Source: Polyporus tsugae (Eukaryota; Basidiomycota; Agaricomycetes; Polyporales; Polyporaceae). From it: 64,000 bases of DNA. This document shows positions 33,354-35,456 of this stretch, in pieces (the first letter of the stretch is position 1; each line of letters starts with the position of its first letter). The notes beneath the pieces were generated by a model. The model saw only the letters and a program-made list of their open reading frames with translations, was not told where the DNA came from and ran no database searches. Where the stretch lies: the NCBI GenBank assembly GCA_024305745.1, contig JAHRBS010000004.1:1488001-1552000 (forward strand), written 5' to 3'. The translations under genes and the position numbers were made by a program.

Positions 33354-35456
33354 ATGGGTATCGTAGAGAAGGTAAACCGGGGTGCCTTCTCAAAGGCGCG
33401 TGTGGCTGAAGATGTGTTCTTTTGGCTGTAGATCAAGGAGATAGAGGGTGAGCTCTTCATAGATGGCTTGTAACTTGCCCCAATCTCACTTAAGATGTGT
33501 TCGTATTCAGAGGAGATGGCGAGGAGTGAGTCTTCCGTGCCACCCCATATTTTTTGTTTGAACTCAGCCTTTGAATAGCACAGAAGAACAAGGTGAGGAC
33601 TTTACCCAGTCGGCAAGCCACCAGTTGTTCATCGGGAAGCGAAGTAGGCGACAGAATACCACCTTGGCCTTCTGAAGGCCAAACTGGCGCGGTACCGCGC
33701 GCAACTCCTCGAGCCGACTGGCAAGTCTAGCGGCGGGGGGACAGGATTCGATGTTCAGAAGTCTGGAGATGCGCGAGTTGCCCTCATCGGCTTCCCTTCA
33801 GTTGGCAAGGTCAGCGTCTGGATGAACAATGGCTCCGTCGTCGGTGGTTTGTCTGACATGCCCCGCCGCCCTAGTCGACGCTTCTCAGCAAGTGCACGCA
33901 CACCCAATCTGAAACCGCAGCGTACGAGTTCACCACCCTCACTGTGGGTTTGTTCATCTTCCACACTATTACGTCCTGATGTGCACCATGCCGTCATCCT
34001 GTCAGGCCATCCCCGGCGTTCTCGAGTACGAAGGCGCGCGGATACAATTGCTCGACCTGCCTGGTATCGTTGAAGGAGCGAGCCAAGGTCGCGGTCGTGG
34101 ACGCCAGGTCGTGGCTACGGCCAAGACGGCCGACCTCATCCTGGTCATGCTGGACGCCACCAAGTCGGACGAGCAGCGGCGTTTGCTTGAGATCGAACTG
34201 GATGCCGTCGGCATCCGTTTGAACAAAGAGAAGCCTGACGTCGTGTTCAAGCGCAAGACCACGGGAGGGGTGCGTGCTGCGCCCACTGCCGTAACTCCGT
34301 TGCCTGATGCACCCCCTGGTCTTTTCATGCGCAGATTACGGTGAGATTCTTCAGCCGGGCTCCCCTGAACCTCTACTTATTCAAGATTAGATTAATAAAA
34401 CGGTGCCGCTGACGAAGACTGACGAGAAAACTATTCGATCCATCTTGGCTAGCTGTATGTGGACCCTGCAAGCGACCATGCGGTAGCTACTCACGGTCAT
34501 TTGGGCCACAGACAAACTGCACAACTGCGATGTAATGATCCGTGAAGACGTAGGTTCTATCTTTTCTCCACCTCACAGTTCCATGACACGCGAGACAGAT
34601 TACGACCGACGAGTTTATAGACGTCCTGATAGGTATGTCCCACAATTCGGACCAACCTGGCAATTCGGCATGCTGAGGTTCTACCGTAGGAACACGCAAA
34701 TACATGCCATGCCTATGTAAGCAGCGCGAGGTCCTTTCATGCCGGGTCCTGCTGAGAAGGTCCATGAACGTAGATGTCTACAACAAGATAGATGCCATTA
34801 GCCTAGAGCAGATGGACAAGCTTGCAAGAGACGACCACACCGTGGTGATCAGCTGTGAACTTGGGCTGAAGTGAGTCTCGAAAGTTGTGCTTTGGAGTAG
34901 CACGGAAGCTGATGTGGCCCTACCTAACCTAGCTTGGACTACCTCATCGAGAGGATTTGGGAAGAGCTTGGCCTAGTCAAGGTGTACACCAAGAAACGGG
35001 GGGTACACCCTGATCTCGCGGACCCAATCTGTTTACGCAAAGGGGCGACGGTGGAGGTCTGTAAAGATTGCGACTGGCAACGGCGAAATGGGCGTATCTG
35101 ATGTCTGGATGTATAGGGCGTTTGCAACGGCATTCATCGGTCGCTTACGGCCAATTTCAGATACGCACTAGTTTGGTGAGTAGAGAAGCGCTTTCCTTGC
35201 CTTGTGTTAGCTGGCTTGCTGACAGACGCGCGGTCTAGGGTGAGCGGTTGAGGTTGTTGGACTGAATGAATGGTGTTCTGACGCTTGTGCGATCAGGGCA
35301 AGTCTTCAAAGTTCAGCCCTCATGCCCAAAAGGTGGGGCTAAACCATCATGTCGCCGACGACGACGTTGTGTCAAGTGCGTATCTATCGGGGATCTCAAA
35401 GCCTGCATGTTTTTCCCCAGCCTTACCCGCTCCATTTGACAGTTTTCACGAAGTGA
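33354..35456 (+). CDS. DRG2: DRG2/Rbg2 family GTP-binding protein
   Basis: Cytoplasmic GTPase associated with translating ribosomes; DRG2/Rbg2 works with a DFRP2/Gir2 partner. Eighteen exons: 33354-33371, 33432-33447, 33511-33525, 33579-33592, 33648-33809, 33875-33943, 34006-34269, 34335-34340, 34391-34454, 34512-34549, 34599-34632, 34690-34716, 34774-34870, 34933-35056, 35117-35175, 35239-35239, 35297-35375, 35443-35456; total 1101 nt, 366 aa, the usual DRG length. Motifs: TQKNKATEYHLGLLKAKLA near the N-terminus, G1 GFPSVGKS, G3 DLPG, RGRGRQVV, G4 NKID, G5-like SCE, and the C-terminal TGS domain (FRYALVWGK, KVGLNHHVADDDVVS). The segment NLDYLIERIWEELGL and VCNGIHRSL fit DRG2 rather than DRG1. 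Several exons are tiny and exon 16 is one nucleotide; without it the frame stops early. Confidence 0.92.

Follow-up and report, generated by a model that had tools for sequence, protein, structure and literature searches.

Whether a single nucleotide can serve as an exon in a conserved gene of a basidiomycete is the question raised by a locus of Polyporus tsugae, where one G, at position 35239 of the window (the whole 64,000-nt stretch of DNA that was analysed), lies between two short introns. One-base exons represent the lower limit of spliceosomal inclusion, and the nuclear examples described in the literature found are few. Judging from the sequence, the base 35239 is very probably a real one-nucleotide exon between two GT–AG introns removed in separate intron-definition events.

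The DRG2 gene around base 35239

The gene harboring this base occupies positions 33354..35456 of the plus strand (stop included) and is modelled with 18 coding exons. Its coding sequence, with the G at 35239 included, comprises 1101 nt and is translated without an internal stop into 366 aa. Pfam profile matches to MMR_HSR1, MMR_HSR1_Xtn, and a complete TGS domain were found in the product, which scores 479.7 bits against yeast Rbg2 (7nrc) vs. 401.5 bits against yeast Rbg1 (4a9a). With the three domains present and DRG2 closer than DRG1, the predicted protein is a DRG2 (RBG2-type) GTPase. The source genome (43.2 Mb in 18 contigs) yielded one strong DRG2 match, at this locus, and a separate DRG1-like locus on contig C13. 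Among the matches listed, the protein is 98% identical to P0002 of Ganoderma leucocontextum and 94–95% identical to those of Dichomitus and Polyporus. The differences between P0002 and the window protein (four substitutions at residues 17–21 and five gap columns) are all situated beside tiny exons or the W-G junction; confined in this way to exon junctions, they indicate that the window probably derives from G. leucocontextum or a close relative of it, so that P0002 may come from the same species as the window and is not independent.

Exon 15 (35117..35175) ends in ...GTT TG, i.e., in the first two bases of the W336 codon, and matches YALVWG of yeast Rbg2. It is followed by intron 15 (35176..35238; 63 nt, GTGAGT..TGCTGAC..TCTAG), by the single G of exon 16 (35239..35239), which supplies the third base of the W336 codon, and by intron 16 (35240..35296; 57 nt, GTGAGC..TTCTGAC..ATCAG). 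Exon 17 (35297..35375) begins with GGC AAG TCT... and continues the TGS domain; the last intron (35376..35442, 67 nt) separates it from exon 18 (35443..35456), whose 14 nt encode the final residues and the stop. All these features are on the plus strand, and the letters and coordinates of the exon 15 end at 35175 and of the GGC AAG codons at 35297 agree with the original prediction. At the 5' end of the gene, exons 1–4 are 18, 16, 15, and 14 nt long (33354–33592) and are separated by introns of 60, 63, and 53 nt. Exon 8 (34335..34340, plus strand) is a 6-nt microexon, ATTACG, encoding Ile-Thr.

The base at 35239 directly follows a complete acceptor and directly precedes a complete donor (TCTAG-G-GTGAGC), and the reading frame of the conserved protein requires it. 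With the G included between the 63-nt and 57-nt introns, the codons TGG GGC are restored together with the whole C-terminus, and the TGS match covers the full profile (positions 1–60 of 60, 64.8 bits), which confirms the predicted 366-aa product; without it, the match is reduced to profile positions 1–42 and 38 bits. If the outer splice sites are paired directly, the G is skipped and the 350-aa product ends in W-ASLQSSALMPKRWG-stop. The frame shift and the early stop expected from such a join were thus borne out: 14 residues follow W, and the stop codon is at 35340–35342.

The Trp-Gly pair in question is uninterrupted in yeast Rbg2 (7nrc, YALVWGSS) and in the DRG1-like paralogue of the same genome (YAVVWGAS). 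A scan of viral contigs revealed no relative, and one of genome contigs revealed six archaea; of their six genes, taken as uninterrupted markers, four possess W-G, the other two having S-G or I-G; yeast Rbg1 has Y-G, so the tryptophan is not universal. As described in the available portion of PMC8629797, deletion of the TGS domain from the yeast paralogue Rbg1 reduced the interaction with the ribosome and abolished the rescue of a growth defect, while single deletions of these genes in yeast caused no significant growth defect. The requirement for the TGS domain of Rbg1 in ribosome interaction and rescue provides a reason for keeping the frame of DRG2.

The neighborhood of the gene includes, on the minus strand, a divergently transcribed neighbor (29356–33107) with an MEKK4 N-terminal match at 31308–33107 and a protein kinase domain at 29359–31134, which may be a single MAP kinase kinase kinase gene of the Ssk2/MEKK4 type. 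Downstream, an open frame on the plus strand (37106–37753) encodes a beta-lactamase-superfamily (Lactamase_B_2) domain; judged by eye, this gene may start near 36137.

Splice signals and the order of intron removal

The splice signals were scored with a model combining donor, acceptor, and branch site, with no length term in the score. The model was seeded by the 15 other DRG2 introns, and limited to 45–80 nt and to scores of at least 6; the two test introns were kept out of its training, which reached 337 introns in the final pass, and its branch-site matrix started from a fungal consensus. Introns 15 and 16 attained combined scores of 14.7 and 13.8, ranking first and third among the 17 DRG2 introns, the other 15 of which scored 5.5–13.9. 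Both are complete introns, as had been predicted, and each has its own best branch-site match with the A at 16–17 nt from the 3' end. Since the other 15 introns are 49–67 nt long (mean 58.8, SD 5.5), lengths of 63 and 57 nt fit this gene, whereas a single intron of 121 nt, 11 SD out, does not. In its own pass, the model recovered only 1 of the 17 DRG2 introns, the shortness of most flanking exons being the reason. Opened to 38–220 nt, it drifted (651 calls with flat lengths), so no genome-wide distribution of intron lengths is claimed; the intron sets from an earlier unsupervised training, which had drifted to spurious long introns, were discarded.

To estimate the chance level, the interior of the intron was shuffled 20,000 times with dinucleotides preserved, the outer donor and acceptor staying fixed. 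An AG-N-GT split reaching both observed scores appeared in none of the 20,000 shuffles; at a lax cut-off of 6 for both introns, one was found in 1656 of them. It is therefore the strength of the site that matters, not its mere presence. Both strands of 264 kb, made up of the window and a further 200 kb from its contig (528,000 strand-bases), were scanned; among the 1769 AG-N-GT sites they contain, flanking introns that both score at least 13.8 occur at the DRG2 site alone. Here, the acceptor chosen by the scan was one farther downstream, 35316 (14.3), rather than 35296 (13.8); with the G included, 35316 loses the frame, and of the two only 35296 keeps it. The expectation that the one-base exon preserves the frame was upheld; that nothing else would do so was not, as five single GT–AG introns in the range scanned also leave the frame open, each at the expense of conserved residues. 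The best of these, 35176–35316 (141 nt), converts VWGKSSKFSPH to VCPH.

In the proposed mechanism, two ordinary introns, one of 63 and one of 57 nt, would each be defined and excised by the spliceosome in an event of its own, the joined product TG|G|GGC would encode the conserved Trp-Gly of the TGS domain, and the mature mRNA across the junction, which probably retains the G in this organism, would read GTTTGGGGCAAG. The 3' splice site of intron 15 and the 5' splice site of intron 16 overlap around one base and can hardly be occupied at the same time, so that the events would probably be sequential; the accessible text of PMC4674806 argues likewise.

The order of the two events appears to be free. 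According to the original prediction, removal of intron 15 recreates the donor of intron 16, making the order obligatory; this part is not supported, for the donor of intron 16 is complete before that removal (AGGGTGAGC, score 5.17) and scores lower after it (TGGGTGAGC, 4.35). At the same time, the scored context of the intron 15 acceptor is unchanged if intron 16 leaves first. With the second donor complete from the beginning and the context of the first acceptor unaffected, either order would be possible. In potato invertase, as cited in the available part of PMC4674806, it is the second intron that leaves first.

The Trp-Gly junction in the proteins of relatives

Relatives were compared as protein models, the probable exon arrangement in their DNA being judged from the protein strings. 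Three protein searches, each represented by its best 120 of several thousand matches, yielded 161 distinct proteins, sorted by source and name into 100 Agaricomycete annotations, 24 Tremellomycete annotations, 31 lgn/jgi contig-only proteins, and 6 others, with the fungal class assigned from the names. The six others were set aside: P0006 (eukprot, 70% identity over 72%, without the region), P0125 (Anopheles, intact), P0133 (unnamed, V-Y-G), and the likewise intact P0131 (Mixia), P0160 (Meredithblackwellia), and P0051 (Calocera).

Among the matches listed, the W-G motif is disturbed in 53 of the 100 Agaricomycete annotations vs. 0 of the 24 Tremellomycete annotations (Fisher p = 2.5e-7) and 1 of the 31 lgn/jgi contig proteins (p = 1.4e-7), both p-values being nominal because the species are related. 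Six of the 31 contig proteins were contributed by the two later searches, some of these being nearest to Tremellomycetes; restricted to the first list, the tally becomes 1 of 25. A similar picture emerged from an alignment criterion applied to the first list, from which only P0006 was left out: among the matches listed there, the junction between exons 15 and 16 is disturbed in 40 of 94 genome annotations (46 models are disturbed in the same list by the motif criterion), and each of eight ordinary interior junctions in 1–9 of 94 (37 of 752 together). Other disturbed places in these listed matches are junctions 1–4 (14–27 of 94), the last junction (26 of 94), and both junctions of the 6-nt exon 8 (21 of 94), the latter trouble spot being expected if tiny exons defeat gene predictors. 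A two-residue deletion at exon 8 occurs in 18 of the 94 listed genome annotations and in none of the 25 listed lgn/jgi contig proteins, so exon 8 seems to be a microexon that is also shared by relatives and mis-annotated in them. In the 25 contig proteins of the first list, disturbances among the matches listed number 3–5 at junctions 1–4, one at W-G, one at the last junction, and none elsewhere.

The contig proteins are informative as a group. In-frame W-G is read in 30 of the 31 listed, and 19 of the 25 in the first list are 364–366 aa long. For 17 of these 25 listed proteins, the longest contig is at most 1.8 kb, which is too short for a gene with 17 such introns; these short lgn/jgi contigs are therefore probably spliced transcripts, and 16 of the 17 have in-frame W-G. 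The exception, P0076 (contig of 1378 nt), reads W-VSCLKQHAC-stop, as might be seen in a transcript that has kept the second intron alone but also in a species with one ordinary intron. Against the one-base exon stands the normal VWGKSS of 47 of the 100 listed Agaricomycete annotations, including the top-scoring match, P0001 of Polyporus arcularius; these models may have been transcript-guided, or the intron may have been lost. Regular and irregular models coexist within one species in Abortiporus biennis (P0004/P0055), Agrocybe pediades (P0012/P0099), and Agaricus bisporus (P0021/P0092).

An exon of one base cannot be placed by gene predictors, which leaves them few forced ways of breaking the model, and such ways are seen. 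The 53 disturbed Agaricomycete models among the matches listed were sorted into error classes summing to 53. VW is missing from ten, which is what use of the GT within GTT TGG as donor would produce, a choice open in the window too (intron 35171–35296). Eleven insert one residue after W (Y in 3, C in 4, W in 1, S in 2, and L in 1), as expected if exon 15 ends in TG, GTNNGT follows, and the GT four bases on is taken as the donor, the inserted codon then starting with T. All 11 residues can be encoded by a T-starting codon, and the eight Y, C, and W have no other codons (S and L do); with F, L, S, Y, C, or W encoded by 19 of the 61 sense codons, this gives a nominal p of 2.7e-6. In nine models, the residue before GKSS is Q, in keeping with the CAG end of intron 16; in five, R precedes GKSS/GRSS, in keeping with AG joined to the single G; four have insertions without a decisive end, and 14 lack GKSSKF. 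In 12 of the listed models, W runs into V, as would result from read-through from the G into the second GT; the same is expected from a retained ordinary phase-0 intron, and one of the 12 (P0107) is a direct join.

Frameshifted tails were recognized in three of the 14 models that lack GKSSKF. The tail of P0107 from Armillaria corresponds to the direct-join frameshift with the same shift (2) as the skip product of the window, and the tails of P0055 from Abortiporus (shift 2) and P0122 from Ceratobasidium (shift 1) to a frameshifted family tail, with 0 of 200 shuffles in each case; the window's own skip peptide served as a positive control and came out as shift 2. Many of the irregularities are those which a one-base exon would force on gene predictors.

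Several other explanations of the locus have to be weighed against this pattern. A single conventional phase-0 intron of 121 nt, the assembly or the strain having lost one G at its donor or acceptor, would need a change of one base only, e.g., TTTGGGTGAGT at the donor instead of TTTGGTGAGT of the assembly. Homopolymer errors are found in long-read assemblies, the window represents a consensus sequence, and P0002, the nearest annotation, may belong to the very species of the window. Still, this explanation is highly improbable: 52 of the 53 disturbed annotations among the matches listed, e.g., from Dichomitus, Trametes, Lenzites, and Armillaria, break at W-G in clearly different species, which contradicts the one-base assembly deletion raised as an alternative in the original prediction, and both the excessive length of such an intron and the internal site pair, reached by no shuffle, speak against it. 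Removal of 35177–35296 or 35176–35295 as one non-canonical intron (TG–AG or GT–CA boundaries) would give TGG GGC and the same product, keeping the G with no exon at all; it would leave the internal acceptor, donor, and branch-site match unexplained, and the relatives' models that end in R or run W into V indicate an internal AG-G-GT, making this reading extremely improbable.

A true frameshift, in which the mRNA skips the G and the 350-aa protein with a changed C-terminus is the main product or a regulated unproductive isoform, draws on the strength of the outer sites (donor 35176, acceptor 35296), whose direct pairing is possible, on the resulting stop 33 nt before the end of exon 17, and on one annotation of this form (P0107); as yeast tolerates the loss of Rbg2 alone with no significant growth defect (PMC8629797, available portion), the damage might be tolerated as well. 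It is nevertheless very improbable in view of the truncated TGS match, the in-frame W-G of 30 of the 31 listed lgn/jgi contig proteins, and the retention of W-G in yeast Rbg2 and four of the six archaeal genes. These contig proteins also oppose the canonical 141-nt intron 35176–35316, which has GT–AG sites, an open frame, and an acceptor scoring slightly above 35296, and to which the Coprinellus model P0104 (VCKFSPY) is of similar kind; by removing eight residues and adding one, it would delete W and GKSSKF, and it is hardly credible here. A one-base exon spliced in two steps remains the reading that we favor.

Known systems, origin, and significance

Nuclear one-base exons are already known. 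Arabidopsis APC11 has a one-nucleotide exon, the base A, inside a 422-nt stretch, proven by cDNA and by base-changed reporter constructs, as detailed in the accessible part of PMC4674806. Like DRG2, it has a single-base coding exon between two introns and a frame which needs the base, and its authors favor intron definition with the introns removed one after the other, as proposed here; unlike DRG2, it belongs to a plant, its base is A, and its exon was demonstrated by cDNA and reporters, while the DRG2 exon is predicted here from sequence. Plant VPS55 also contains a one-base microexon, conserved in diverse land plants and absent from the reference annotations of the species studied, but the gene and kingdom are different and the support comes from RNA-seq and RT-PCR sequencing (PMC8831610, available part). 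The fungal counterpart is Fusarium CYP621A, with an AG-G-GT core situated within a conserved protein motif, two short introns, and gene models that go wrong at this point; according to the accessible text of PMC12940212, it is an ascomycete case limited to one P450 subfamily of Fusarium relatives and backed by 18 RNA reads, whereas DRG2 represents Basidiomycota, with traces across a class. One-base exons are on record for mitochondria too in literature available in part. In the literature searched, no one-base exon was reported for Basidiomycota or for DRG2/RBG2.

The original prediction also likened the site to stwintrons and to recursive splicing, and neither likeness holds. Stwintrons share with DRG2 two adjacent fungal introns and consecutive splicing reactions, but in them the internal intron interrupts a splice signal of the external one, which makes the order obligatory (PMC5639578 and PMC9024468, available portions). 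In DRG2, both introns have a complete donor, branch-site match, and acceptor before any splicing, with one base between them; since neither interrupts a splice signal of the other, the site was rejected as a stwintron. Recursive splicing with a zero-nucleotide exon was likewise rejected: an exon base remains in the product, and the second donor is already present at the outset, scoring 5.17 vs. 4.35 after the first step.

Disturbed models are spread widely among the matches listed, being present in Ceratobasidium (Cantharellales; P0122, P0123), Sphaerobolus, Gautieria, Ramaria, and Hysterangium. Besides Cantharellales, the orders represented are Geastrales, Gomphales, Hysterangiales, Hymenochaetales, Polyporales, Russulales, Boletales, Amylocorticiales, and Agaricales, the placements of Ceratobasidium and Cristinia having been confirmed. 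Within Cantharellales, four of the six listed models are intact (Hydnum, Clavulina, and two of Tulasnella); none of the 24 listed Tremellomycete models is disturbed, and the single listed Calocera model is intact. Read from protein strings, this distribution suggests that relatives probably share the exon itself and not just a hard intron, and that the one-base exon arrangement is probably ancestral to Agaricomycetes. The simplest reading would be a gain in or before the Agaricomycete ancestor, followed by some losses or well-guided annotations. A derivation of intron 16 from a duplicate of intron 15 was unsupported, as 283 of 1000 shuffles align as well.

Taken together, it is likely, at a lesser degree of confidence than for the exon in the window, that the one-base exon of DRG2 dates back at least to the Agaricomycete ancestor and has persisted from then on. 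Such an exon would be an ancient case from outside plants, with no earlier report from Basidiomycota in the literature searched, and the likely cause of the irregularities in 53 of the 100 annotations among the matches listed. With APC11, VPS55, and CYP621A on record, it is the apparent taxonomic spread that sets the DRG2 case apart. In practical terms, 53 of the 100 sampled Agaricomycete DRG2 models among the matches listed are irregular at the W-G codon. A class-wide case in this conserved translation GTPase, if true, would offer many natural replicates for studying the alternating use of overlapping 3' and 5' splice sites; it would also raise the questions of why the arrangement has not been lost and of how many other conserved fungal genes are likewise mis-annotated.
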